A stretch of 64,000 nucleotides of DNA from assembly GCF_024721115.1 (NCBI RefSeq), contig NZ_JAMDHK010000014.1, forward strand, positions 1-64,000. The letters are read 5' to 3'. Origin of the DNA: Salipiger pentaromativorans. Lineage in GTDB: Bacteria > Pseudomonadota > Alphaproteobacteria > Rhodobacterales > Rhodobacteraceae. Below are positions 5,544-26,542 of this stretch, piece by piece. Below the pieces are notes generated by a model, which worked only from the letters and a program-made list of their open reading frames with translations, was not told the DNA's origin and ran no database searches. Both the position numbers and the translations under genes were made by a program. Position 1 is the first letter of the stretch. Every line of letters starts with the position of its first letter.

Positions 5544-6602
5544 ATGGCGCGCAGCTTTCCGTCCCTCTCCGATTTCCTCAGCCACGGCTTCGATACGGTC
5601 ATCGACGTGCGCAGCCCCGCCGAGTTTGCCGAAGATCACGTGCCCGGCGCCATCAACCTTCCCGTGCTCGACAACGAGGAACGCGCGCGCGTCGGCACCA
5701 TCTACAAGCAGCAAAGCCCCTTTCTCGCGCGCAAGCTCGGCGCCGCGCTGGTGTTCCGCAACGCCGCCGCCCATATCGAGGGGCCGCTGGCACATCACGA
5801 GGGCGGCTGGCGGCCGCTGGTCTATTGCTGGCGCGGCGGGCAGCGCTCGGGCTCTTTCGCCTGGATGCTGCAACAGATCGGCTGGCGCGCCGAGGCGGTC
5901 GAGGGCGGCTATCGCAGCTACCGGAGGCTGGTCACCGGGGCGCTTTACGAGATGCCGCTGCCGCACCGGCTGATTCAGCTCGGCGGCTATACCGGCACCG
6001 CCAAGACCGCGCTGCTGCCGCGGCTCGCGGCGCGCGGGGTGCAGATGGTCGATCTGGAAGGGCTGGCGCGGCACCGCGGATCCTTGCTGGGGGATATGCC
6101 GGGCGGGCAGCCCAGCCAGAAAGCCTTTGAGACCGGGCTCGCGCAGGCGCTGAGCCGACTCGATCCGGCGCGGCCGGTGCTGGTGGAGGCGGAAAGCAGC
6201 AAGATCGGCCAGATCCTGCTGCCGCCATCGCTGTGGGAGGCGATGAAACAGGCGCCCTGGATCGAGGTCTCGGCGCCGCTGGCGGCGCGCGCGGCCTATC
6301 TCGATGCGGCCTATGACGACATTCTGTCCGATGGCGAGCGGCTTCGGGACATGCTCTCGCCGCTGCGCTATCATCGCGGTCATGCGCTGGTGGATCGCTG
6401 GGAAGAGCTGATTGCGTCGGGCGCGCGTCTGGAGCTGTGCCGGTCGCTGGCGGCCGATCACTACGATCCGGCCTATGAGAAATCCATGGCGGCGATGACG
6501 CCGGATGTGCTGCGGCGCTTCGAGACGCCGACGCTGGACGATAGCGGCCTCGACCGGCTGGCGGACCGTATCGCCGAGGCGCTTCAGACGATCGAGATCT
6601 GA
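5544..6602 (+). CDS. mnmH: tRNA 2-selenouridine synthase
   Basis: 352 residues. MnmH (SelU/YbbB) converts 2-thiouridine at the wobble position of Lys, Glu and Gln tRNAs to 2-selenouridine by way of a geranylated intermediate, using selenophosphate. The N-terminal rhodanese domain (1-125) includes FDTVIDVRSPAEFAEDHVPG and the catalytic Cys95 in VYCWRGGQRSG. The C-terminal P-loop domain has GGYTGTAKT (147-155), the variant loop typical of this family. The start is placed at 5544 because family alignment begins MARSFPSLSDFLSHGFD; upstream frame runs through the tRNA. It converges with selD, which makes the selenophosphate, and the two 3' ends overlap by 19 bases. Confidence 0.95.
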   Translation: MARSFPSLSDFLSHGFDTVIDVRSPAEFAEDHVPGAINLPVLDNEERARVGTIYKQQSPFLARKLGAALVFRNAAAHIEGPLAHHEGGWRPLVYCWRGGQRSGSFAWMLQQIGWRAEAVEGGYRSYRRLVTGALYEMPLPHRLIQLGGYTGTAKTALLPRLAARGVQMVDLEGLARHRGSLLGDMPGGQPSQKAFETGLAQALSRLDPARPVLVEAESSKIGQILLPPSLWEAMKQAPWIEVSAPLAARAAYLDAAYDDILSDGERLRDMLSPLRYHRGHALVDRWEELIASGARLELCRSLAADHYDPAYEKSMAAMTPDVLRRFETPTLDDSGLDRLADRIAEALQTIEI

Positions 6603-8761
6603 CCCGGCCAGTCGCCGGCGATGCGGCCGATGACGGCGGCCTCATAGCCCAGAGCCTGCAGTTGGCTGACCGCCGCCGCGCCATCGGGGATGGCGGCGAG
6701 CAGGCCGCCCGAGGTTTGCGGATCGAAGAGCAGATCGAACAGTGGTTGCAGCGCCGGCTCCGAGGGGGTGTCGAGCGACGGGACAGCATCGCGATTCTTG
6801 GGGTAGAGCGTCGAGCGGATGGCTGCCTCTGCCAGCTCCTCGGCGCCGGGCAGCAGCGGGATCGCGTCGAGCACAAGCTCGGCGCTTTTGCCCGAGGCCA
6901 TGCAGATCCCGTGCAGATGGCCGGCGAGGCCGAAGCCCGTGACATCGGTCATCGCATGCGCGCCGGCGAGCAGCGTCGCCGCGTCGCCCTGCGGGCGGGT
7001 CATGCTCGTGAGCGCCTCGGCCACCCAGTCGCCCCTTGCCAGCCCCATCATTTCGGCGGCCATGATCACGCCGGAACCCAGCGGTTTGGTCAGCACCAGA
7101 TCGTCGCCCTCCCGCGCGCCGGATAAGGTGATCGGCGCGGTGTCGCAAAGCCCGGTGATCGTGAAGCCGATGGTCAGTTCGTCGCCCATGGAGGAATGCC
7201 CGCCGACGATCTCGGCGCCCGCGCTGCGCAGGATTTCCGAGGCGGCGGTGAGGATCTCGGTCAGCGTGCGTTCCGCCAGCGGCTCGGACATGCGGGGCAG
7301 GGTGAGGCTGGCGGTGGCGGCCTGCGGCGCGGCGCCCATGGCCCAGATGTCGCCAAGCGCGTGCACGGCGGCGATGCGGGCCATGACCACCGGGTCTGCG
7401 GTGAAGGCGCGCAGATGGTCGGTGGTCAGCACCTGACGGGTGCCGCCGGTGGTCAGCAGCGCGGCGTCGTCGCCGGGCAGGGGGGTGACATCGGCGCGCT
7501 CGGGCGGCGGCAGGTGTGCCAGCGCCGCCGAGAGTGCATCGCGCCCGACCTTGGCGCCGCAGCCGCCGCACATGGGTTTGTCGCCGAGCGCCTCCTTGCT
7601 GCCCGCGGCGCGAGGCGTGGGAAGGGGCGGCGGCTGCATCTGCGGCAGCGCCTGGAATTTCTCCATGAACCGACGGTCGATGCGGTCCTTCCAGCGCCAC
7701 ATCAGCGGGCCCGAGAGCGCCAGGCCGAAGCGGTCGCCAAGGGCGGATCTTTCGCCCAGAGAGATGAGCTTGAGGTAATCCTTTTGCGGGCGATAGGGGC
7801 GGGGCGTGGCGTCGCCGGTCAGTCTGGCGCGCAGGTTGTCGAAGAGGACGGGCGCCTCGCGGACTGCATAGACGCCGGCCTTGGGGCGCGGGCTTTGCGT
7901 CAGATGCGCGCAATCGCCGGCGGCGAAGACATCCGGGTCGGAGCTTTGCAGCGTTGGGGAGACGGCGATGAAGCCCCCGTGCAGGGCGAGCCCGGTGCCG
8001 GCCAGCCAGGGGTGCGGCCAGGCGCCCGCCGCGCCGGTCACGAAGGCGGCGGCGAGATGCGTGCCGTCGGCGAGGGTCAGACCCTCGGCGGTGATCGCGG
8101 TGATGTCCGCCTGTTCGTGCAGGGTGACGCCCTGGCGGGCGAGGGCGCGGCGGAGTTTTTCGGCGGCGGGCGGGCGCAGGGCAGACAGCGCGGCGCTGCG
8201 GTCGAGCAGGTGCACTTCGGCCGCGCGGCCGCGCGTTCTCAGCGCATGGGCCATCGCGGCGGCCAGCTCGGCCCCCGCCACGCCGCCGCCGATCACCGCG
8301 ACCGAGGCGGGGCCGCCGCCATCGCGATAGCGCGCCCAGGCGCTGGCGAAGGGGCCAAGCGGCTTGGCGGGGATGGCGTGGTCTGCAAAGCCCGGCAGAT
8401 CGGGCATGGCCGAGGTGATGCCGATATCGACGGAGGCCACGTCGAAGCCCACCGGCGGGCGTCCGGGGACGTGGATTTCGCGCGCCGCGAGGTCGATGCC
8501 CTCGGCGGCGCCAAGGATCACCCTTGCGCCTGCGAAACGCGCGAGTTTCACCAGGTCGATGTCCAGCGTCTCGCGGTCGTAATGGCCCGCGACAAAGCCT
8601 GGCAGCATGCCGGAATAGGGCGCGGTGGGGCCGGGGTTGATGACGGTGACACGGGCGCCGGGCAGCGGTTTCATCCCCCACATGCGCAGCACCAGCGCAT
8701 GGGTATGCCCGCCTCCGATCAGCACCAGATCGCGGGTCAGGGGCAGGGTGGGGGGCATCAT
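6584..8761 (-). CDS. selD: Selenide, water dikinase fused to FAD/NAD(P) oxidoreductase
   Basis: 725 residues in two parts. Residues 1-370 form a pyridine-nucleotide-disulfide oxidoreductase-like domain: FAD loop LVLIGGGHTHA (13-22), NAD(P) loop AVIGGGVAGAE (155-165) and the second FAD motif VFAAGDCAHL. Residues 390-725 are SelD: CGGCGAK (398-404) holds the catalytic Cys/Lys region, followed by LPGDDAALL and TDVTGFGLAGHLHG. SelD makes selenophosphate from selenide and ATP. The fused oxidoreductase is known in several bacterial groups and may deliver or reduce selenium. The start is supported by AAGGAG nine bases upstream. The neighbour mnmH is the only selenium-using gene in view. Confidence 0.93.
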   Translation of the reverse strand: MMPPTLPLTRDLVLIGGGHTHALVLRMWGMKPLPGARVTVINPGPTAPYSGMLPGFVAGHYDRETLDIDLVKLARFAGARVILGAAEGIDLAAREIHVPGRPPVGFDVASVDIGITSAMPDLPGFADHAIPAKPLGPFASAWARYRDGGGPASVAVIGGGVAGAELAAAMAHALRTRGRAAEVHLLDRSAALSALRPPAAEKLRRALARQGVTLHEQADITAITAEGLTLADGTHLAAAFVTGAAGAWPHPWLAGTGLALHGGFIAVSPTLQSSDPDVFAAGDCAHLTQSPRPKAGVYAVREAPVLFDNLRARLTGDATPRPYRPQKDYLKLISLGERSALGDRFGLALSGPLMWRWKDRIDRRFMEKFQALPQMQPPPLPTPRAAGSKEALGDKPMCGGCGAKVGRDALSAALAHLPPPERADVTPLPGDDAALLTTGGTRQVLTTDHLRAFTADPVVMARIAAVHALGDIWAMGAAPQAATASLTLPRMSEPLAERTLTEILTAASEILRSAGAEIVGGHSSMGDELTIGFTITGLCDTAPITLSGAREGDDLVLTKPLGSGVIMAAEMMGLARGDWVAEALTSMTRPQGDAATLLAGAHAMTDVTGFGLAGHLHGICMASGKSAELVLDAIPLLPGAEELAEAAIRSTLYPKNRDAVPSLDTPSEPALQPLFDLLFDPQTSGGLLAAIPDGAAAVSQLQALGYEAAVIGRIAGDWPGQISIV

Positions 8762-15825: not shown

Positions 15826-16521
15826 TCAGATCGAAACCTTGGCCAAAAGCGCCTCGCGGTCGATCTCGCCCGCCTTGCCCGCCAGCGAGACGGCGCCGCG
15901 CTGCACGGCGACAAAGCTGTCGGCAAGCTCCCACATGAAATCGAAATACTGTTCCACGAGGATGATCGCCATGCCGCCCTGATCGCGCAGCTGCGAGATC
16001 ACCCGCCCGATCTGCTGGATGATATTGGGCTGGATGCCCTCGGTCGGCTCGTCGAGCAGCAGCACGCGGGGCTTGGTGATCAGGGCGCGGGCGATGGCCA
16101 GCTGCTGCTGCTGCCCGCCCGAGAGATCGCCGCCCCGGCGGTGCAGGAAATCCTTGAGGATCGGGAACAGCTCGAAGATGTGGTCGGGCACCTTGTGCTC
16201 GGATTTCGGCAGGCAGGCAAAGCCGGTCTCGAGGTTCTCCTGCACCGTCATCAGCGGGAACACCTCGCGCCCCTGCGGCACATAGGCGATGCCCGCGCGC
16301 CCCGCCTGAAAGGCGTTGAGATGGTTGAGCGGCGCGCCGTCGAGCGTGATGGCGCCGCCGCTGTAAGGGTGGCGGCCCGCGATGGCCTTCAGCAGCGAGG
16401 TCTTGCCCACGCCGTTGGTGCCGGTCACGGCGGTGACCTTGCCGGGTTCCGCCGTCAGCGAGATGCCGTGCAGGATCTGGCTCTGGCCGTAATGCAGGGT
16501 GAGGTTGTCGACGCTCAGCAT
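15826..16521 (-). CDS. urtE: Urea ABC transporter ATP-binding protein UrtE
   Basis: 231 residues, LivF-like. Walker A TGTNGVGKTSLL (33-44), YVPQGREVFPLMTVQENLETG typical of UrtE, signature LSGGQQQQLAIARAL and Walker B VLLLDEPTEGIQPNI. One of two ATPases of the high-affinity urea importer and the last gene of urtABCDE, 73 bases after urtD. CGGAGGTCCCTC precedes the ATG. Confidence 0.95.
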   Translation of the reverse strand: MLSVDNLTLHYGQSQILHGISLTAEPGKVTAVTGTNGVGKTSLLKAIAGRHPYSGGAITLDGAPLNHLNAFQAGRAGIAYVPQGREVFPLMTVQENLETGFACLPKSEHKVPDHIFELFPILKDFLHRRGGDLSGGQQQQLAIARALITKPRVLLLDEPTEGIQPNIIQQIGRVISQLRDQGGMAIILVEQYFDFMWELADSFVAVQRGAVSLAGKAGEIDREALLAKVSI

Positions 16522-16594: not shown

Positions 16595-17335
16595 TCAGCG
16601 CCCCAGATAGACTTCGATGACCTCGGGATTCGAGGTCACGTGATCGAGCGAGCCTTCCGCCAGCACCGACCCTTCGCAGAGCACCGTCACCTTGCAGTCG
16701 AGCCGCCGGATGAACTCCATGTCGTGCTCGACCACCACCACCGCGTGTTTCTCGGCGGCGCGCTTCAGCAGGTCGGTGGTGTGTTCGCGCTCGGCGGGGG
16801 TCATGCCGGCCGCCGGCTCATCCACCAGCAAAAGGCGCGGGTCCTGCGCCAGCAGCATGCCGATCTCCAGCCATTGCTTTTGCCCGTGGCTCAGCTCGCC
16901 CGCGATGCGCGGCAGGCTGTCGGTCAGGCCGATGGTCTCGGCCAGCTCCTCTATCCGCGCGGCACCGCGCTTGGTCTTGTGGTAAAGCAACACGTCGAAG
17001 GGCCCGCGCTTGTTCTTCAGCGCCATGGCGAGGTTCTCGCGCACGGTCTGCGCCTCGAAGACGGTGGGTTTCTGGAACTTGCGCCCGACGCCCGCCATGG
17101 CGATCTGGCTTTCGCTCATCTTCAAGAGCGAGATGGATTTCTCGCCATAGATCACCTTGCCCTCGTCGGGCCGGGTCTTGCCGGTGATGATGTCCATGAA
17201 GGTGGTCTTGCCCGCGCCGTTGGGGCCGATGATGGCGCGCAGCTCCGGCTCGCCGATCTGGAAGCTCAGGTTGTTGATCGCCTTGAACCCGTCGAAGCTG
17301 ACGGAGACACCGGACATTTCGAGAAGCGTTTTCAT
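16595..17335 (-). CDS. urtD: Urea ABC transporter ATP-binding protein UrtD
   Basis: 246 residues, LivG-like. Walker A GPNGAGKTTF (37-46), the Q-loop region VGRKFQKPTVFEAQTVRENLA that marks UrtD, signature LSHGQKQWLEIGM and Walker B LLLVDEPAAGMTPAE. The signature LSHGQ instead of LSGGQ is normal for UrtD. The start codon overlaps the urtC stop by four bases (ATGA), showing translational coupling. Confidence 0.95.
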   Translation of the reverse strand: MKTLLEMSGVSVSFDGFKAINNLSFQIGEPELRAIIGPNGAGKTTFMDIITGKTRPDEGKVIYGEKSISLLKMSESQIAMAGVGRKFQKPTVFEAQTVRENLAMALKNKRGPFDVLLYHKTKRGAARIEELAETIGLTDSLPRIAGELSHGQKQWLEIGMLLAQDPRLLLVDEPAAGMTPAEREHTTDLLKRAAEKHAVVVVEHDMEFIRRLDCKVTVLCEGSVLAEGSLDHVTSNPEVIEVYLGR

Positions 17336-18519
17336 TTCTTCTCTCCTCCTTCAGCGCTGCCGCGCGTCGCGATCAGGTCGAACAGCCCGCCGATGCCCTT
17401 GGGGGCGAGCAGGGTGACGGCGACAAAGCTCACGCCCAGCAGCACAAGCCACCAGTCGGTCCACTGGATCGTGTAGAAACCCAGCGGGATGTTGGGCGCG
17501 CCGCCGCTGGTGAACCAGCTCGACAGCAGCGAGACGAAGGCCGCGCCAAGCGCCGCGCCGTAAAGCCGCCCGCGCCCGCCGATGGCGACCCAGACCGCCA
17601 GGTAGATCGAGGCGATGGGCGCGATCTCGTTGGGGTTGATGATGCCCGCCTGCGGGTAATAAAGCGCGCCCGCGATGCCCGCGACGATGCCGGTCAGGGT
17701 GAAGACGAAAAGCTTGTAGCTCTCCACATGGTAGCCGAGGAAGCGCACCCGGCTTTCATTGTCGCGAATGCCCCGGATCACCGATCCCATCTTGCCCGAG
17801 ACCACCCAGGCAAAGAGCACATAGCCCGCCCCCAGCGCCACGGCCGAGGCCCAGAAGAAGGCGATGGAGATCTGCGCCTGCGGCACCGCGTCGAGGCCGG
17901 GCAGGTTCTGCAGCCCCGAAAGGCCGTTGTTGCCGCGCAGTCCGGATTCGTTCTGGAACAGGTACAGCGACAGCGCCAGCGTCATGGCCTGCGTCAGGAT
18001 CGACAGGTAGACGCCGGTCACCCGCGAGCGGAAGGCGAGCCAGCCGAAGACCAGCGCAAGCAGGCCCGGCACCAGCACCACCATGGCGATCTGCAGCCAG
18101 AAACTATGCGCGAAGATCCAGATCGGCGGAAAGTCCGAGCTGCCCACCACGCCGAAGATCTGCGTGCCGATGGCGTCGTGGATCTCTTCCGGGGTGGGCG
18201 GGATGGCGGCGGCGCGCAGGCTTTCGGTGATGATGATCTCGATGCGCGCATACATCAGCCACATGCCGATCATATAGCCGCCGAGCCCGAAAAACGCCAT
18301 GTGGCCCAGCGACAGGATGCCGGTGTAGCCCCAGACCACATCCATGGCGATGGCCACCAGCATCAGGCAGAGCGTCTTGCCCAGCGTCTTGACGAAGCTC
18401 GTGGAGATCATGCCGTTGCCGGTCGCTTCCGACAGCACGGTGACGATCAGCACGAAGACCGCGAGCGAAAGCAGGAACCAGAAGACCGAGCGGTTCTGGG
18501 ACAGGAAACTGCCGTTCAT
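17332..18519 (-). CDS. urtC: Urea ABC transporter permease UrtC
   Basis: 395 residues, LivM-like with about ten hydrophobic segments. Family landmarks: MDVVWGYTGILSLGHMAFFGLGGYMIGMW, GVYLSILTQAMTLALSLYLFQNE and GLRGNNGLSGLQNLPG. An inserted polar loop at about 110-150 is usual for UrtC. The start is set at MNGSFLSQNRS, which has AGGGAGATCC before it; the longer frame to 18573 is not needed. It pairs with UrtB in the inner membrane. Confidence 0.95.
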   Translation of the reverse strand: MNGSFLSQNRSVFWFLLSLAVFVLIVTVLSEATGNGMISTSFVKTLGKTLCLMLVAIAMDVVWGYTGILSLGHMAFFGLGGYMIGMWLMYARIEIIITESLRAAAIPPTPEEIHDAIGTQIFGVVGSSDFPPIWIFAHSFWLQIAMVVLVPGLLALVFGWLAFRSRVTGVYLSILTQAMTLALSLYLFQNESGLRGNNGLSGLQNLPGLDAVPQAQISIAFFWASAVALGAGYVLFAWVVSGKMGSVIRGIRDNESRVRFLGYHVESYKLFVFTLTGIVAGIAGALYYPQAGIINPNEIAPIASIYLAVWVAIGGRGRLYGAALGAAFVSLLSSWFTSGGAPNIPLGFYTIQWTDWWLVLLGVSFVAVTLLAPKGIGGLFDLIATRGSAEGGEKK

Positions 18520-18582
18520 GACTGGATCTCCCTGAAGGCGGGGCGGGGCAGGGAGGCCGCCGCGCCGCCGCAAATCTTCCCT

Positions 18583-18706: not shown

Positions 18707-20665
18707 TCAATCCCCCGCCGCGCGGCCCTTGAGGGCGACGATGCCCTTGGGGCGGAACTGGATGAAGAGGATGATGAAGAGGATCATATAGGTCTGCGCC
18801 GCCAGCGTGTTGGACGGGTTGAAATACTCGATCCCTTTCTGGAGGATGCCGATCAGCCCGGCGCCCGCCAGCGTGCCCCAGACATTGCCGACGCCGCCCA
18901 CGACCACGGTCATGAAGCTCTGCACGATGTAATCGGCGCCCATCTCCGAGGTGACCTTGGCATAAAGCCCGATGGCCACCCCCGCGATGCCGGCGATGCC
19001 CGAGCCGAGGCCGAAGGTCAGCATGTTGATCTTGTCGGGGTTGATGCCCATGGAGGCCGCCATGCCGGGGTTCTGCGTCACCGCGCGTACCTCCAGACCC
19101 AGCCGGGTCTTGTTCAGCACGAAGAGGATGAGCCCGAGAAAGATCAGCGCCAGCACGAAGATCGCGATGCGGATATTGGCGATGCCCACCACATCGTTCA
19201 GCACCCAGGCGCCGTCGAGCCAGGAGGGCGAGGTCAGCGGCCGGGCCTGCGTGCCGAAGATGTTTTTGGCCAGCTGCTGCAGCGCGATGGAGATGCCGAA
19301 GGTGGCCAGCAGCGTTTCCAGCGGGCGGTGGTAGAGCCAGCGGATCACCAGCCGCTCCATCGCCACGCCCGCGCCAAAGGTCACCGCGAAGGCGAGCGGC
19401 AGGGCGACGATGATGCTGACGGTGTAGTCGGGGATGATCTGCTGCACCACATAGCCGGTATAGGCGCCCATCATGATGAACTCGCCATGGGCCATGTTGA
19501 TCACGCCCATCACCCCGAAGGTGATGGCGAGCCCGATGGCGGCGAGGAAATAGATCGAGGCCAGCGACAGCGCGTCGAGCCCGAGATCGAGCATCTGGTT
19601 GAAGAACACGCGGGTCTCCACCTCGTCGAGCGCCTCGCGGGCGGCCGAGGTGATGCTGGCGTCCGTCTCGTCGTATTCCTCGTAAAACACATGGGCGCTG
19701 ACGGCGGTCGCCTCATCCGCCTTTGTGACCAGCGGCGGCACGGTGCCTGCGGCGGCCAGCGCCGCATAGGCGCGGTCGCGGCCGTCTTCGCTGACAAGCT
19801 GGCCCAGCGGCACGCCGCCCACCGCGCCATCGGCGATGTTCTCGGTCAGCGCGGCCTTGATCTGGTCGCGGCTCCAGATGGCGGGCGCGAGGCCGGCCTC
19901 GACAAGCCGGGCATAGGCCTCGTCTTCGGTCAGATCCTTGCCGGGCGTTAGGGTGCGGGCGATGTTGGCGTTCTCGGGCAGCGCCGTGGCCACGCCGGGT
20001 TTGGTGGTGAGGATCTGGTTCAGCACCGCGCGCACATCCACCGACAGCGCGCCGGACAGCGCCTCGATGGCGGCGATGCGCTCGTCTGCCGTATCGCCGA
20101 AGCGGGCGGCGAGCATGCCCGCCAGCCGCTCCTTGCGGGCCAGCAGCTCTGGATCGGTCTCGCCCGCGATGGAGTTGCGCAGCGGCTCCAGCTGGTCGGG
20201 TTCGGGGCTGCGGGCGATGGCGTCGAGCGCGGCGCTGCGGCGGGTAATGTCGGGATCGGAAAGCTGGAACTGCACCAGCGCGGTGGCGATGACCCGGCGG
20301 ACGCCGCCATTGGGGCGGATCTGGGTCATCTCGGAGCCGGGCGCGGTGCCGGCGGGGGCGCCGCTGGCAATATCGCTCAGCGCATAATCGTCGCCCTGTT
20401 TCTCTGCGAAATAGAACAGCCCGTCGCTGCTGCGCTGATAGACGCCACGGTCGGCCCAGCGTTCGAGAAACAGCGGCACCGAAGGAAGGCCCGAGGCGGT
20501 CAGGGCCTCGATGAGCGTGCCGACGCTTTGCCGCCCGGGGCTGGCGACCTCTTCGGCCTGGGTCTGGAGGATCGTCTGAAGATCCTGATCCTGTGCCCGT
20601 GCCGGTCCCGCCGGCATGCAGAGACACAGAACGAGCGCGAAGGCGAGAAGAAGCGCACGCAACAT
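18707..20665 (-). CDS. urtB: Urea ABC transporter permease UrtB
   Basis: 652 residues. A signal peptide (MLRALLLAFALVLCLCMPA) leads a periplasmic N-terminal region of about 330 residues that is helical and repeat-like and contains LDAIARSPEPDQLEPLRNSI. This long extension is usual for UrtB but absent from plain LivH permeases. The LivH-like membrane part starts near residue 350 and includes GVMGVINMAHGEFIMMGAYT, LLATFGISIALQQLAKNIFG and VVVGGVGNVWGT. It forms the urea channel with UrtC. Separated from urtA by 83 bases that contain a strong hairpin. Confidence 0.95.
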   Translation of the reverse strand: MLRALLLAFALVLCLCMPAGPARAQDQDLQTILQTQAEEVASPGRQSVGTLIEALTASGLPSVPLFLERWADRGVYQRSSDGLFYFAEKQGDDYALSDIASGAPAGTAPGSEMTQIRPNGGVRRVIATALVQFQLSDPDITRRSAALDAIARSPEPDQLEPLRNSIAGETDPELLARKERLAGMLAARFGDTADERIAAIEALSGALSVDVRAVLNQILTTKPGVATALPENANIARTLTPGKDLTEDEAYARLVEAGLAPAIWSRDQIKAALTENIADGAVGGVPLGQLVSEDGRDRAYAALAAAGTVPPLVTKADEATAVSAHVFYEEYDETDASITSAAREALDEVETRVFFNQMLDLGLDALSLASIYFLAAIGLAITFGVMGVINMAHGEFIMMGAYTGYVVQQIIPDYTVSIIVALPLAFAVTFGAGVAMERLVIRWLYHRPLETLLATFGISIALQQLAKNIFGTQARPLTSPSWLDGAWVLNDVVGIANIRIAIFVLALIFLGLILFVLNKTRLGLEVRAVTQNPGMAASMGINPDKINMLTFGLGSGIAGIAGVAIGLYAKVTSEMGADYIVQSFMTVVVGGVGNVWGTLAGAGLIGILQKGIEYFNPSNTLAAQTYMILFIILFIQFRPKGIVALKGRAAGD

Positions 20666-20748: not shown

Positions 20749-22038
20749 TCAGTAGTTCGACTTGATCTGGACGCAGGTCGAGGTCTCGGTGTTGTACATG
20801 CCGCACTCGAGCTCTTTCCAGTCGGACTTGAGCGGAGCGGATTCCGGCAGGTAGTCGGTCCAGGCGTCGCCGGGGACCGGCTCGGTCTGCGAGATGATGT
20901 CGAACTGACCGTCGGCGCGGATCTCGCCGATCAGCACCGGCTTGGACAGGTGGTGGTTGGTGCCCATCACCGCCATGCCGCCGGTCAGGTTCGGGAACTC
21001 GAGGCCCCACATGTTTTCGCGCACGGCGTCAACGTCGGTGGTGCCGGCGGCTTCGACGGCCTTCACCCACATGTTGAAGCCGATGTAATGCGCTTCCATG
21101 GGGTCGTTGGTCACGCGCTTGTCGTCGCCGATGAACTCATGCCATTCCTTGATGAACTCGGCGTTTTCCGGCGTGTCGGCGGTCATGAAGTAGTTCCATG
21201 CAGCCAGGTGGCCGACGAGGTTCGAGGTGTCGAGGCCCGACAGCTCTTCTTCACCCACCGAGAAGGCCACGACCGGGATGTCGTCTGCCGACACATTCGC
21301 CGCCGCGAGTTCCTTGTAGAACCCGATGTTGGCATCGCCGTTGATGGTCGAGATCACGCCGACCTGCTTGCCGTCTTCGCCCAGGGCGACGACGTCGGCC
21401 ACGATGGTCGACCAGTCGGATTGACCGAAGGGCGTGTAGTTCACGAAGATGTCCTCTTCGGCAATGCCCTTGTCCTTGAGGTAGGATTCCAGAATGTTGT
21501 TCGTGGTGCGCGGATAGACATAGTCTGTGCCGAGCAGCGCGAATTTCTCGACGCCCAGTTCGTCAAGGAAGTAATCGACGGCAGGGATCGCCTGCTGGTT
21601 CGGGGCGGCGCCGGTGTAGAACACGTTCTTAGAGGATTCCTCGCCCTCATACTGCACCGGGTAGAAATAGAGCGCGTTGAGTTCTTCGAGGACAGGCAGA
21701 ACGGCTTTGCGGCTCGACGAGGTCCAGGAGCCGAAGGTCACGTCGACCTCGTCGTTCGAAATCAGCTCACGCGCCTTTTCCGCGAACAGCGGCCAGTCGG
21801 AGGCCGGATCCTTGACCACGGCTTCCAGCTCGCAGCCCAGCAGGCCACCGGCGGCGTTCTGCTTGGCGATCAGCATCAGCATCGTGTCTTTCAGCGTGGT
21901 CTCCGAGATCGCCATCGTGCCGGACAGCGAGTGCAGAACGCCCACCTTGATCGGGCAGGTCACGTCTTGTGCCGAGGCTGCGCCAGCGGCGAACAGCGCC
22001 GCGGCGGCCACGCCCGAAAGTTTCAGCGTTTTAATCAT
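20749..22038 (-). CDS. urtA: Urea ABC transporter substrate-binding protein UrtA
   Basis: 429 residues. Signal peptide at 1-23 (cleavage near ASAQD). The mature protein begins TCPIKVGVLHSLSGTMAISE and includes DPASDWPLFAEKARELI, TFGSWTSSSRKAVLPV and LFYPVQYEGEESSKN-like sequence, all characteristic of UrtA/FmdD-type binding proteins. It binds urea (or short amides) in the periplasm. The open frame continues far upstream to 23958, but that part is antisense to the next gene. ATG at 22038 has AAGGGATG as ribosome site and begins the signal peptide. First gene of urtABCDE. Confidence 0.95.
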   Translation of the reverse strand: MIKTLKLSGVAAAALFAAGAASAQDVTCPIKVGVLHSLSGTMAISETTLKDTMLMLIAKQNAAGGLLGCELEAVVKDPASDWPLFAEKARELISNDEVDVTFGSWTSSSRKAVLPVLEELNALYFYPVQYEGEESSKNVFYTGAAPNQQAIPAVDYFLDELGVEKFALLGTDYVYPRTTNNILESYLKDKGIAEEDIFVNYTPFGQSDWSTIVADVVALGEDGKQVGVISTINGDANIGFYKELAAANVSADDIPVVAFSVGEEELSGLDTSNLVGHLAAWNYFMTADTPENAEFIKEWHEFIGDDKRVTNDPMEAHYIGFNMWVKAVEAAGTTDVDAVRENMWGLEFPNLTGGMAVMGTNHHLSKPVLIGEIRADGQFDIISQTEPVPGDAWTDYLPESAPLKSDWKELECGMYNTETSTCVQIKSNY

Positions 22039-22281
22039 TAGGTAACATCCCTTGTGCGCGGCGCGATCCTCCCGTCGCCGCCCCGCCTGTTCGGCCGGGC
22101 GGGGCAGAAAATGACTGCTCGCCGCTTCGTTGTTGTTGCGCCCCGACCGTGCTTGCACGTTTTCGTGCCGTGCCGGGGCATCCCCGTTTTTGCACTCCTC
22201 CCGGAGCACGCCCCTTTGATTAGCGGAGCGTCGGGGTGCCTCCACGTCAATTTCCGGAAGGTGCCGGGCCCGGGGAATTTT

Positions 22282-22298
22282 TGCACATTTTGCGTGCA
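22282..22298. promoter_or_regulatory. NtrC-type binding site upstream of urtA
   Basis: TGCAC-ATTTTGC-GTGCA, a 17-base match to the NtrC consensus TGCAC-N7-GTGCA. It lies 244 bases upstream of the urtA start, inside the 474-base region 22039-22512 shared with the divergent ATP-grasp gene. A weaker version with a six-base spacer is at 22154-22169. I could not place a good sigma-54 promoter. Confidence 0.65.
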
Positions 22299-22512
22299 TG
22301 TTTTGGGTTGTGTGTGTATTTTTTGGGCGCTGATTTGCGTCAGTTTCGTGGCATAGGGGAGAATACGGCCCGGAAATCGCGACTTCGGGATTCGTATGCC
22401 GGCGTTGCCTAAGTTTTGGGCTTTGGCCTCGTGGGGGACAAAATTTTGCCTGGGGGGCCTTTTCCTTATGCCCGGAAAGTTGGAGTTTGAGGCGCAGAGC
22501 GAAGGGAATACA

Positions 22513-23937
22513 ATGAGCGCCAAGCAAGCCCCGATCTTCAACGAAATGATGAACGGCGGAGACGTTCGCGCCGCCTATCGAAATCTCGAACAATGGTATC
22601 GCTCCATGCCTGCGGAGCTCCGAAGCCTCAAGCAATCCGAGGCCGAGGCGCTGTTCCGGCGGGTGGGGATCACCTTTGCCGTCTATGGTGAAGGCGGCGA
22701 CCCGGAGCGGCTGATCCCGTTCGACATGTTCCCGCGGGTGCTGACCGATACCGAATGGCGCAAGCTCGACCGCGGCATCCGCCAGCGGGCCGCGGCGCTC
22801 AACGCCTTTCTCTGCGATGTCTACGGGCGGCGCGAGATCATCCGCGCGGGCCGCATTCCCGAACATCTGGTCACCAATAACGAGGCCTATGAAAAGGCCG
22901 CCGTGGGCTTCATGCCGCCCAAGGGCGTGTTCAGCCATATCGTCGGCGTCGATCTGGTGCGCACCGGGCCCGACCAGTTCTATGTGTTGGAAGACAACTG
23001 CCGGACGCCCTCGGGTGTGAGCTACATGCTCCAGAACCGCGAGATCATGATGCGCATGTTCCCGCAGCTCTTCATGGAGAACCGCATTGCGCCGGTCGAC
23101 GGCTATGCCGGGCTTCTGAAAAAGACGCTGGCCTCGGTGGCGCCCAAGAAATGCATGAGCGAGCCGAATATCGTGATCCTCACGCCCGGCCAGTTCAACT
23201 CTGCCTATTACGAACATTCCTTCCTGGCCGATCTCATGGGGGTCGAGCTGGTCGAGGGGCAGGATCTTTTCGTCGAGGGCGATTTCGTCTGGATGAAGAC
23301 CACCGAGGGCCCCAAGAAGGTGGATGTGATCTATCGCCGGATCGACGACAGTTTCCTCGATCCGCTGTGCTTCCGCCCGGATTCGATGCTGGGCGTGCCG
23401 GGGCTGATGGATGTCTACCGCTCGGGCGGCGTGACGATCTGCTCGGCGCCGGGCGCGGGCGTGGCCGACGACAAGGCGATCTACACCTATGTGCCCGAGA
23501 TGGTCCGCTTTTATCTCGGCGAGGAGCCGGTGCTGGAAAACGTGCCCACCTGGCAATGCGCCAAGAAGGACGATTGCAAATACGTGCTCGAACACCTGCC
23601 GGAGCTGGTGGTGAAAGAGGTGCACGGATCGGGCGGCTACGGTATGCTGGTGGGGCCGAAATCGGACAAATCCACCATCGAGGCCTTCGAGGCCAAGATC
23701 CGCGAGAACCCCGAGAACTACATCGCGCAGCCGACGCTCTCGCTTTCGGCCTGCCCGACCTTCGTGGAGGAGGGCATCGCGCCGCGCCATGTGGACCTGC
23801 GCCCCTATTGTCTCGTGGGCGAAAAGATCGAACTCGTGCCGGGCGGGCTGACCCGCGTGGCGCTGACCGAAGGGTCGCTGGTGGTGAACTCCTCGCAGGG
23901 CGGGGGCGTGAAAGACACCTGGATCCTGGCGGAGTGA
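22513..23937 (+). CDS. Circularly permuted ATP-grasp protein (type 2)
   Basis: 474 residues of the DUF404/DUF407 circularly permuted ATP-grasp group. Typical segments: FAVYGEGGDPERLIPFDMFP, GVDLVRTGPDQFYVLEDNCR, VILTPGQFNSAYYEHSFLA, VVKEVHGSGGYGMLVGP and PRHVDLRPYCL. ATP-grasp enzymes join a carboxylate to an amine, so a peptide or amide ligase role is expected; the substrate is unknown. First gene of a four-gene set with an alpha-E protein, a transglutaminase-like protease and the Anbu peptidase. The start at 22513 follows GAAGGGAATAC; the upstream methionine at 22396 lies in low-quality sequence. Confidence 0.92.
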   Translation: MSAKQAPIFNEMMNGGDVRAAYRNLEQWYRSMPAELRSLKQSEAEALFRRVGITFAVYGEGGDPERLIPFDMFPRVLTDTEWRKLDRGIRQRAAALNAFLCDVYGRREIIRAGRIPEHLVTNNEAYEKAAVGFMPPKGVFSHIVGVDLVRTGPDQFYVLEDNCRTPSGVSYMLQNREIMMRMFPQLFMENRIAPVDGYAGLLKKTLASVAPKKCMSEPNIVILTPGQFNSAYYEHSFLADLMGVELVEGQDLFVEGDFVWMKTTEGPKKVDVIYRRIDDSFLDPLCFRPDSMLGVPGLMDVYRSGGVTICSAPGAGVADDKAIYTYVPEMVRFYLGEEPVLENVPTWQCAKKDDCKYVLEHLPELVVKEVHGSGGYGMLVGPKSDKSTIEAFEAKIRENPENYIAQPTLSLSACPTFVEEGIAPRHVDLRPYCLVGEKIELVPGGLTRVALTEGSLVVNSSQGGGVKDTWILAE

Positions 23938-23944
23938 ACAAGAC

Positions 23945-24898
23945 ATGCTGAGCCGCACCGCAGATCACCTTTACTGGATGGCCCGCTATCTCGAGCGCGC
24001 CGAAACCACCGCGCGCCTGCTCGAAGTGGGCGCCCGCAACGCTTTGCTGCCCGATCCCTCGGGCGGCTATCGCAACGACTGGGAGGCCGTGCTTCAGGCC
24101 AAGGGCACGCTGGAAGAGTTCAAGGAAAAATACGGCGAGCCCAACCAGCGCAATATCGAAACCTGGCTGTTCTTCGATGCCGAGAACCCGTCCTCTGTGC
24201 TCTCCTGCATCAACGCCGCGCGCGAGAATGCCCGCGTGGTGCGCACCGCGCTGACCGCGCCGGTCTGGGATGCGATCAACTCTGCATTCCAGGAGCTCAA
24301 GCAGCTTCAGCGCACCGAGCGCAGCAAGCTCATGCTGAGCGATCTCAGCGAATGGACGCTGCGCATCTGTCATCTCGTGCGGGGCTGCATTCAGGCCACG
24401 CAACTGCGCAATGACGGCTACGACTTCATGGGCATCGGGACCTCTGTCGAGCGTGCCGACAACACCGCGCGGCTGATCGACGTGAAATATTACGTGCTGC
24501 TGCCGTCGCTCTCCTATGTCGGCTCCGGCCTCGATCAGAGCCAGTGGGCGCTGCTCTTGCAGTCGATGACCGCGCAGCGCGCCTTCAACTGGACCTATAC
24601 CGGCGAGATCACCGCGCAGAAGATCGCGCATCTGCTGATCCTCAACCGCAAGTTCCCGCGCTCGCTTTTGTCCTGTGTGCATTGGACCTGCGAGCATCTC
24701 GACAATATCGCCGAGAATTACCAGACCGGCACCCGCGCGCAGGATGTGGCGCATCAGCTTCTCGACGATCTGAACCGCGCCTCGGTCGAGGACATCTTCG
24801 ACGAAGGGCTGCACGAGTTCCTGGCGCGCTTCATGGCGCGCAACGCGGGGCTCGCGACCACGGTTCAGGATGTCTATCTGCATGGGATCCCGGCATGA
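23945..24898 (+). CDS. Alpha-E domain-containing protein
   Basis: 317 residues, almost all helical. It starts MLSRTADHLYWMARYLERAE, the hallmark of the alpha-E (DUF403) family, and has FMGIGTSVERADNTARLIDV in the middle. No catalytic motif is known for this family. It nearly always travels with a circularly permuted ATP-grasp gene and a transglutaminase-like gene, as here, and is thought to serve as partner or scaffold of the ligase. It starts 7 bases after the ATP-grasp stop. Confidence 0.93.
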   Translation: MLSRTADHLYWMARYLERAETTARLLEVGARNALLPDPSGGYRNDWEAVLQAKGTLEEFKEKYGEPNQRNIETWLFFDAENPSSVLSCINAARENARVVRTALTAPVWDAINSAFQELKQLQRTERSKLMLSDLSEWTLRICHLVRGCIQATQLRNDGYDFMGIGTSVERADNTARLIDVKYYVLLPSLSYVGSGLDQSQWALLLQSMTAQRAFNWTYTGEITAQKIAHLLILNRKFPRSLLSCVHWTCEHLDNIAENYQTGTRAQDVAHQLLDDLNRASVEDIFDEGLHEFLARFMARNAGLATTVQDVYLHGIPA

Positions 24899-25728
24899 AA
24901 CTGAGCGTGCGCCACACCACCCGTTACCGTTTCGACCATCCCGTGCGCGGGGTGGTGCAATCCTTGCGTCTCTGGCCCGCCGACTGTGCTTCGCAAAAGG
25001 TGCTGTCCTGGGAGGTGAAAACCGAGGGCGCGCTGCGCGGAGCGGAATTCACCGATGGCGCGGGCGACCGCACCGCGCTCGCTAGCTGGCGCGGCCCGCT
25101 TGACGAGCTGAGCGTCGTCGTGACCGGCGAGGTCGAGACCGTCGATCTTTTCGGCGTGCTGCGCGATCACCGCGAAAAGGGGCCGGCCTCGCTCTATCTG
25201 CGCTCCACCAAGTTCATCCGCCCCGACAACGACCTGCGCGCGTTGTCGGCCTCGGCGCTGGACGGGATGAAAGCGGCCTCCGATCTCGACCGGGCGCACG
25301 CGCTGTCGGGCGCCGTAGCCGAGGCCATCGACTATGCGCCGGGCGAGACCAAGCCGCACACCACCGCCGCCGAGGCGCTGTCGGGCGGCAAGGGCGTGTG
25401 TCAGGACCACGCGCATGCGCTCATCGCCGTGGCGCATGTGGCCGGCATTCCCGCGCGCTACGTCACCGGCTATTTGCAGGCGGACGAGGACGGCAAGCCG
25501 CATGAGGCCAGCCACGCCTGGGCCGAGCTGTTCGTGCCGGATCTCGGCTGGGTCGGTTTCGACCCGTCGAACCGCTGCTGCCCGGACGAGCGTTATATCC
25601 GCCTCGGCTCGGGCTTTGACGCGCAGGACGCGGCACCGATCCGGGGGGTGGTCCAGGGCAGCACGCCCGACGAGCATCTGACCGTCGAGGTCATCGTGAC
25701 CGCCGAACAGGGCCAGCAACAGCAGTAA
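24895..25728 (+). CDS. Transglutaminase-like cysteine protease
   Basis: 277 residues. N-terminal beta domain MKLSVRHTTRYRFDHPVRGVVQSLRLWP, then the papain-like fold with Cys169 in GGKGVCQDHAH, His208 in EASHAWAELF and Asp223 in WVGFDPSN, giving an intact catalytic triad. Family members are cytoplasmic peptidases or peptide-bond-rearranging enzymes. The start overlaps the alpha-E stop (ATGA), so the two are translationally coupled. A glutamine-rich tail (QGQQQQ) ends the protein. Confidence 0.93.
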   Translation: MKLSVRHTTRYRFDHPVRGVVQSLRLWPADCASQKVLSWEVKTEGALRGAEFTDGAGDRTALASWRGPLDELSVVVTGEVETVDLFGVLRDHREKGPASLYLRSTKFIRPDNDLRALSASALDGMKAASDLDRAHALSGAVAEAIDYAPGETKPHTTAAEALSGGKGVCQDHAHALIAVAHVAGIPARYVTGYLQADEDGKPHEASHAWAELFVPDLGWVGFDPSNRCCPDERYIRLGSGFDAQDAAPIRGVVQGSTPDEHLTVEVIVTAEQGQQQQ

Positions 25729-25819
25729 ACGGCGGCATCTGCGCCGTTCGGGCCCATTGCCCGGCGGGCCGCGCGGCTCTATAGCCGATGCGGGGCAGGG
25801 TGCTTTCAGGGGATTCGGG

Positions 25820-26542
25820 ATGACCTATTGCGTGGGATTGCTGTTGGATGCGGGCATGGTTCTGCTCTCCGACACGCGCACCAATGCGGGGCTCGACAAC
25901 ATCGCGACCTATCGCAAGATGTTTCTCTTCGAGACCCCGGGCGAGCGGGCCATCGGCATCATGACCGCCGGTTCGCTGTCGATCACCCAGACCACCATGG
26001 CGCGGCTGACCGATGCCAATGACGATCCGGAAAGCGACCGGTCGATCCTGCGGGCGCCGACCATGTTGCAGGTGGCGGAGATCGTCGGCGGTATGCTGTC
26101 GGACGTCACCACCGAAGTCTCGGCCAAGATGGAACGCATGAGCCAAGGCGCCACCGCCTCGATGATCGTGGCGGGGCAGCGCAAAGGCGGCCCGATGCGC
26201 ATGTTCCTGGTCTATCCCGAGGGCAATTTCATCGAGGCGACGCAGGACACGCCGTTCCTGCAGATCGGCGAGCACAAATATGGCAAGCCGATCCTCGACC
26301 GGGTGATCGAGCCCGGTACCTCGCTGGCCGATGCCGAGAAGGCGGTGCTGCTGTCGATGGATTCCACCCTGCGGTCGAACCTCAGCGTCGGCATGCCGCT
26401 GGATATGGCGATCATCGAAACCGATGCGCTTCAGATCAGCCGGCGTCGCCGGATCGAAGCCGATGACGAGGGCTTTGCCCGGATGAGCGCCGCCTGGTCC
26501 GAGGCGCTGCGCAACGCCTTCCAGCAGATCGACCCGATCTGA
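25820..26542 (+). CDS. Anbu, proteasome-like peptidase
   Basis: 240 residues. MTYCVGLLLDAGMVLLSDTRTNAG is the signature of Anbu, the ancestral beta-subunit of bacteria: after removal of Met, Thr2 should be the N-terminal nucleophile, with Asp and Lys equivalents in LLSDTRTNAG and YRKMFLF. Residues 80-160 contain the extra segment with SAKMERMSQGATASMIVAGQ. Structures of homologues show an open helical ring rather than a closed barrel. It lies 91 bases after the transglutaminase gene and completes the known association. The upstream methionine at 25757 is rejected because Thr2 must follow the initiator. Confidence 0.93.
   Translation: MTYCVGLLLDAGMVLLSDTRTNAGLDNIATYRKMFLFETPGERAIGIMTAGSLSITQTTMARLTDANDDPESDRSILRAPTMLQVAEIVGGMLSDVTTEVSAKMERMSQGATASMIVAGQRKGGPMRMFLVYPEGNFIEATQDTPFLQIGEHKYGKPILDRVIEPGTSLADAEKAVLLSMDSTLRSNLSVGMPLDMAIIETDALQISRRRRIEADDEGFARMSAAWSEALRNAFQQIDPI

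Follow-up and report, generated by a model that had tools for sequence, protein, structure and literature searches.

Anbu, a proposed relic of the proteasome ancestor, was named in 2008, and its function has been open ever since (PMC5666114). Here we describe an operon of the gene system to which Anbu belongs, for which PMC6376114 cites Iyer et al. 2009, from Salipiger pentaromativorans, where genes for an ATP-grasp protein, an Alpha-E protein, a transglutaminase-fold protein and Anbu lie beside a complete urea importer. The operon is located on a stretch of 64,000 nucleotides (contig NZ_JAMDHK010000014.1, positions 1 to 64,000), called the window in the following.

In published data, Anbu operons are induced together with urea genes when nitrogen is limiting. 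In Pseudomonas putida on nitrate versus ammonium, log2 changes of +4.44 for PP_2685 (Anbu) and +3.99 for PP_2688 (ATP-grasp) stand beside +4.37 for urtA and +4.38 for ureD (PMC8050072). Nitrogen limitation raised PP_2686–2688 by 11 to 15 fold, along with urtABCD (PMC7801951), and a further nitrogen-limitation study of P. putida lists Anbu at 11.1 and 4.0 (PMC3325844). Loss of ntrC in Burkholderia cenocepacia changed ATP-grasp, Alpha-E and transglutaminase by log2 −8.2, −9.4 and −9.4, with the urea genes falling less steeply (PMC5491218), and in marine metagenomes the operon domains associate with urea domains (PMC3597751). On the biochemical side, the Yersinia ATP-grasp releases inorganic phosphate from ATP (PMC6376114), while Anbu binds epoxomicin and cleaved none of the substrates tested (PMC5666114); in the sections of PMC5666114 and PMC6376114 consulted here, the Anbu assays found no peptidase activity.

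The direct evidence from our locus consists of the gene set, its active-site residues, its position beside urtABCDE and the recurrence of the urea link in relatives. New are the linkage of the operon to urea genes in five layouts, the constancy of the ATP-grasp/Alpha-E pair, the constancy of Asp18 in Anbu, the residue losses in a fused paralog and in the transglutaminase and, possibly, the tandem duplication of Alpha-E. We tentatively place the operon within a nitrogen-scavenging response close to urea use, in which it might run a cycle of amide ligation and hydrolysis, a reading that we regard as quite possible.

The operon and its active sites

All four genes lie on the + strand in the order ATP-grasp, Alpha-E, transglutaminase, Anbu by which an Anbu operon is recognized. 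They encode a circularly permuted type 2 ATP-grasp protein of 474 amino acids (22513..23937), Alpha-E with 317 amino acids (23945..24898), a transglutaminase-fold protein of 277 amino acids (24895..25728) and Anbu, a proteasome-like Ntn-hydrolase of 240 amino acids (25820..26542). Consecutive genes are separated by +7, −4 and +91 nucleotides, the negative value being the 4-nucleotide overlap of the transglutaminase gene with Alpha-E. The ATP-grasp reading frame is open upstream of 22513, and an aligned ATG occurs at the position of 22513 in three relatives. As closest named relatives of the Alpha-E protein we found those of Citreicella sp. C3M06 (86 %) and Salipiger marinus (85 %).

The ATP-grasp protein matches Pfam PF14403 (CP_ATPgrasp_2) above the cut-off at E 2.6e-163 and aligns over its entire length to 3n6x (E 3.1e-192), the sole solved ATP-grasp retrieved by sequence. 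Alpha-E matches PF04168 (E 2e-88) and carries its ER motifs; sequence searches retrieved no solved structure for it. The transglutaminase-fold protein combines Bact_transglu_N (5.1e-20) and Transglut_core (1.8e-23). Anbu passes the general proteasome model PF00227 narrowly (8.9e-5, 22.7 bits, cut-off 22.4), but its identity is firm from a sequence search of structures, in which it matches five distinct solved chains between E 8.6e-78 and 5.7e-56, among them 5loy (“Designed Anbu Protein”, 8.6e-78), 5nyj (“Anbu”, 2.5e-70) and 5lox (“Peptidase”, 5.7e-56), the last of which we take to be P. aeruginosa Anbu. None of the NCBIfam models matches any of the four proteins at E 0.001. Judged by these family matches and by gene order, the set is a member of the known, previously described Anbu operon kind.

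To see how firmly the active sites are kept, we read 160 loci that had been fetched for carrying Alpha-E or its fusion; these are mostly alphaproteobacterial and not independent of each other. A scripted alignment places K368, G374/G375, D428 and N459 in the window's ATP-grasp, which presumably form the ATP and metal site, and these residues are kept in the 149 gap-free sequences among 151 unfused ATP-grasps (window counted). The window's Anbu has Thr2 directly behind the start Met, Asp18 and Lys33. This agrees with the published active site of Thr after the start Met, Asp17 and Lys32/33 in mature numbering (PMC5666114, PMC6376114). Asp18 is found in 115/115 aligned sequences (window included, one locus entered twice) and K33 in at least 95 % of them; Thr2 is likewise present in 115/115, although the start was located by a pattern that itself demands Thr. 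That pattern fitted 114 of the 116 matches in relatives, the other two being L090 (MTYG, Thr present) and L219, which is without the start region. Anbu thus appears to keep its active site whenever it is present, while probably being an accessory member of the system.

The transglutaminase-fold protein of the window has a complete Cys-His-Asp triad (C169/H207/D223). Among the copies directly behind Alpha-E, the Cys is absent in 13 of 132 (L105, L107, L116, L130, L170, L172, L174–L176, L187, L194, L202 and L207), for which the tree requires at least five changes, two of them forced by well-supported branches. Because of this loss, transglutaminase catalysis is, as far as the alignments tell, dispensable in some lineages. 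In four of the 13 Cys-less proteins we noted a Q/S-rich stretch at the place of the Cys. An apparent tie between Cys loss and absence of Anbu (6/11 against 11/117, Fisher 0.0007) was rejected, as only two independent pairs lie on well-supported branches.

The initial annotation of this DNA had described an intact four-member unit at 22513..26542 with a complete protease triad and an Anbu Thr2, in an association already known. The unit is borne out by Pfam and structure matches, by the shared strand and by the gene ends, which fit the outer coordinates; the checked active-site residues are present, the triad and Thr2 are as described, and the association is the Anbu operon of PMC6376114.

Linkage to urea genes

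On the opposite strand, 471 bp away from the ATP-grasp gene, the operon adjoins a complete urea importer urtABCDE. Beyond the divergent intergenic region (22042..22512) follow, all on the − strand, the gene for the urea-binding protein UrtA (20749..22041, TIGR03407), the permease genes urtB (18707..20665, TIGR03409) and urtC (17332..18573, TIGR03408) and the ATPase genes urtD (16595..17335, TIGR03411) and urtE (15826..16521, TIGR03410). All five models are matched above their cut-offs, that of UrtC just so, and the start codons of urtA and urtC are not settled.

Urea genes border the operon in relatives as well, in five layouts. The divergent arrangement of urt and ATP-grasp is shared by the window, Citreicella, Salipiger marinus and G162. 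G356 carries urtA-urtB-urtC-urtD-urtE followed by ATP-grasp, Alpha-E, transglutaminase and Anbu on one strand, with urease genes divergent from urtA. In G214 the four genes precede ureD, ureA, ureB, ureC, ureE and ureG on the same strand; the ureD frame there abuts the end of Anbu, its start codon not being settled. In G101 the urease genes lie upstream of ATP-grasp and share its strand, a single gene separating them from it, and in G165 the urease genes are divergent from ATP-grasp.

For a statistical view we counted same-genome pairs within 20 kb of Alpha-E, assuming uniform random placement and ignoring relatedness. Among 80 genomes of the family (omitting the second piece of G117's Alpha-E), ureC lies this close in 4/64 pairs against 0.66 expected (P 0.005). 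As controls, recA gave 0/68 pairs against 0.70 expected and the ammonium transporter gene amt 1/97 against 0.99, the latter from a list of 118 places, of which 14 fall just short of the cut-off and the others exceed it; weaker matches were omitted, such as one of 88 bits in G121 that lies about 18.5 kb from Alpha-E. Across the phylum sample of 199 genomes, with the second Alpha-E of the window genome left out, ureC is near Alpha-E in 4/89 pairs from three genomes among the matches listed (0.79 expected, P 0.009), and in 4/87 against 0.77 (P 0.008) without the window genome. Among the same listed matches, Alpha-E occurs in 60/77 genomes with ureC and in 55/122 without (odds ratio 4.3, P 4e-6), while a class sample holds Alpha-E in 35/96 genomes and a full-score urtA in 19. 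Urease within 20 kb of Alpha-E is hence commoner than random placement gives, at modest P values, and recA and amt are not enriched. In a literature search for papers on at least two of Anbu, urease and urea transporter, none of the 10 listed out of 339 concerns this system by title or start of abstract, and the physical linkage may be known elsewhere.

Candidate regulatory sites were also considered. An NtrC-like palindrome, TGCAC-N7-GTGCA, lies at 22282–22298 between urtA and the ATP-grasp gene; it was rejected as an NtrC site, with 51 such matches in the window against a mean of 42.7 in shuffles and none at this place in Citreicella, S. marinus or G162. NtrC-like scores of at least 10 occurred in 5/148 upstream regions where about 4 were expected from 6756 control windows. 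Sigma54-like sites numbered 19 against 27.6 expected, with none in the urtA/ATP-grasp intergenic region.

Downstream of the operon, the − strand carries a chemotaxis cluster, in which one gene has CheA as its best match, at a score below the cut-off of that model, and the other members were recognized by eye. No gene for an unfoldase or other AAA+ partner was recognized among the immediate neighbors, urt and chemotaxis, to which this inspection was confined within the genome. As side observations, about 360 residues precede the part of UrtB (18707–20665, −) that is matched by the UrtB model; the − strand gene at 6584–8761 encodes a pyridine nucleotide oxidoreductase domain followed in the same protein by SelD (selenide, water dikinase); and 58–1548 (−) encodes an RTX-repeat protein with eight repeat stretches in the low-G+C start of the window (50 % versus about 66 %).

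The ATP-grasp/Alpha-E pair and its fused paralog

Gene order was scored in 136 unfused loci with sufficient flank, 135 of them distinct, since of the two double entries (L083/L157 and L109/L193) only L109/L193 affects this number. ATP-grasp stands upstream of Alpha-E in all 136. The four genes lie close together in the order of the window in 98/136 (97/135 distinct), and because relatives share the full order at this rate the arrangement is not chance. Anbu follows in 107/136, comprising the 98 full sets, six loci scored as lacking the transglutaminase and three with Anbu farther off; one of the six, L084, does have a transglutaminase, its Alpha-E match being in two pieces. Within the scanned flank, Anbu was not found in the remaining 29/136, of which 20 are without Anbu and nine hold the first two genes only. 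At L159 (10001–10930), on a contig whose title names Pelagibacteraceae (SAR11), ATP-grasp, Alpha-E and transglutaminase are present and the flank that was read shows no Anbu. Other recurrent neighbors, a peptidase-like gene at 15 loci and a transferase-like gene at six, both named by eye, were set aside as they look like local synteny.

Alpha-E itself is a tandem duplication of a unit of about 150 residues, with unit 1 at residues ~1–150 and unit 2 at ~151–317. Compared as profiles, the N-terminal 150 and C-terminal 167 residues match each other along their full length, with E 2.1e-20 for 17 sequences and 4.2e-17 for 44. A repeat run gave 1.5e-18, with 0.07 for a reversed control and 0.07 to 0.85 for ten column-shuffled controls. 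Each half bears one ER motif (E17-R18 and E169-R170) that is invariant in both alignments. The duplication indicates how the structure of Alpha-E ought to look.

The genome of the window contains a second Alpha-E on contig C8 (locus L002, 59060–62902), fused behind an ATP-grasp domain in a protein of 757 amino acids. The fused gene is flanked by that of a transglutaminase-DUF2126 protein on one side and a second transglutaminase gene on the other. Pfam still calls the fused copy an ATP-grasp. Nevertheless, D428 and N459 are both gone in 33/33 fused paralogs, with never D or E at the 428 position and never N, D or E at the 459 position; K368 is lost in 25/33 and kept in 8. Because these presumed metal-site residues are lost throughout, the fused ATP-grasp has probably ceased to act as a ligase and would be retained to partner Alpha-E, and the neighboring DUF2126, a “putative amidoligase” in Pfam, may do the chemistry for this cluster. 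Urease genes lie near the fused cluster in the window genome, G039 and G298, as do ureE/ureG matches in G327.

Among the matches listed, 115 phylum genomes have Alpha-E, and in at least 17 of them an unfused and a fused copy are no more than 15 kb apart; for 16 of the 17, G042 (L122) included, the loci themselves were read. With ATP-grasp next to Alpha-E at every scored locus, the two joined in the paralog, and unfused and fused copies close together in some genomes, ATP-grasp and Alpha-E probably form one machine, which is the strongest inference of this analysis. The core of the system would accordingly be ATP-grasp plus Alpha-E, given that this pairing is constant, Anbu is absent from some flanks and the transglutaminase Cys is sometimes lost; Anbu would then be conserved but dispensable.

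Possible roles and comparison with known systems

In the nitrogen-scavenging role proposed here, ATP-grasp and Alpha-E would act together as an obligate ligase, spending ATP to couple a carboxylate with an amine into a small peptide or amide. This product would be bound, transferred or cleaved by the transglutaminase-fold protein, and Anbu would hydrolyze it via its conserved Thr nucleophile. Cells limited for nitrogen, which import and hydrolyze urea, would in this way have a reversible amide store or modification at their disposal. In a more specific version, ATP-grasp and Alpha-E would fix urease-derived ammonia, or another amine, on a peptide carboxylate as a stored amide, and its release would fall to the transglutaminase-fold protein and to Anbu, the latter working as an amidase and not as a protease. 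Such an ammonia buffer would account for a bond-maker beside bond-breakers, for the missing peptidase activity and for the urt/ure neighborhood; we rate it as very doubtful all the same.

Several observations weigh against a nitrogen-scavenging amide cycle. In PMC7801951, Anbu (PP_2685) stands at 1.12 in the first column, read as wild type, where the other three genes reach 11 to 15. A pull-down with Anbu as bait gave no specific partner (PMC6376114), and the Anbu literature consulted describes neither a ligase product nor hydrolysis by Anbu. In the family, urtA is within 20 kb in only 2/50 pairs (0.51 expected, P 0.09), so that most copies lie away from urea genes. Without the window genome, the family excess of ureC shrinks to 3/60 pairs against 0.62 (P 0.025), and the phylum figure counted by genomes is three against 0.77 (P 0.04, among the matches listed). 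Co-occurrence of Alpha-E and ureC may partly reflect genome size, and simple consensus scans found no conserved NtrC or sigma54 site upstream. The loss of transglutaminase catalysis in some lineages counts against the cycle as well.

Among the alternatives, Anbu could serve general starvation proteolysis, degrading proteins for their nitrogen with indirect help from the other members, and the urea link would then be a matter of shared NtrC control. Induction under nitrogen limitation (PMC5491218, PMC8050072, PMC7801951, PMC3325844) is in line with this, and a degradation role is preferred by the authors of PMC5666114. We consider it unlikely, since ATP-grasp/Alpha-E and not Anbu is most constant, a ranking conditional on loci fetched by Alpha-E, and since the ammonium transporter gene shows no linkage (1/97 pairs against 0.99 expected). 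This gene is under NtrC control as well.

Another explanation to which we give a small chance is synthesis of a small peptide or natural product, such as a glutathionylspermidine-like conjugate, a metallophore or an osmolyte, with the hydrolases maturing the product. Every step would be enzymatically plausible, and 3n6x is named a putative glutathionylspermidine synthase; that name, however, rests on annotation only. Apart from ABC ATPases, no transport family is widely recurrent beside the operon, most neighbors being unannotated, and five loci have a transporter-like gene nearby, by eye of the TRAP type.

Tagging proposals of others are recounted in PMC6376114, and a scheme resembling ubiquitin or, in our own comparison, Pup, in which proteins would receive a peptide from ATP-grasp/Alpha-E, have it edited by the transglutaminase and be degraded or detagged by Anbu, would suit the proteasome family membership of Anbu, its conserved Thr nucleophile and Asp18 and the ligase beside hydrolases, but is improbable in view of immediate neighbors, urt and chemotaxis, without an unfoldase gene, of published work without peptidase activity or Anbu partner in the sections consulted (PMC5666114, PMC6376114) and of 29/136 operons without Anbu in the scanned flank.

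The ATP-grasp/Alpha-E core, the accessory Anbu, the dispensable transglutaminase chemistry, nitrogen control and the urea link together speak more for a small amide that is made and broken when nitrogen is short than for a general protein tag. The initial annotation had called the product not known, with which we agree, and had suggested a peptide tag, which the evidence neither supports nor contradicts. Its interpretation holds for the intact known set; it missed the adjacent urea importer, the recurrent urea link and the near-absolute ATP-grasp/Alpha-E pairing. A general logic of “two bond-breaking enzymes” does not apply, because the transglutaminase Cys is lost in 13/132 copies and the published Anbu assays consulted were negative (PMC5666114, PMC6376114). 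The nitrogen-starvation experiment it proposed is apt: the repeated placement beside urea genes and the published co-induction suggest a growth condition, and a test by isotope labelling, for Anbu function, and the ranking by conservation (ATP-grasp/Alpha-E, then Anbu, then transglutaminase chemistry) tells which activity to assay first.

Compared with known systems, the window's Anbu resembles HslV and the 20S proteasome beta subunit in its proteasome family match and in the N-terminal Thr, Asp and Lys. It differs from them in that no AAA+ partner gene was recognized among its immediate neighbors and in that published Anbu assays, in the sections consulted, were without peptidase activity. 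The fused ATP-grasp/Alpha-E and transglutaminase-DUF2126 cluster shares its domains with the window's operon and, in this genome, also has urease genes in its vicinity, as ureD, A, B, C, E and G follow on its strand after about 9 kb. It differs in that its ATP-grasp is without D428/N459 (33/33) and that DUF2126 is adjacent. In the clade of the window the operon is divergent from urtABCDE, whereas PP_2685–2688 and the urt genes (PP_4841–4845) of P. putida have distant locus numbers. The Anbu operons of P. putida (PP_2685–PP_2688) and Yersinia bercovieri are like that of the window in their gene kinds and conserved four-gene order (PMC6376114), and the P. putida operon is induced by nitrogen limitation (PMC8050072, PMC7801951, PMC3325844).

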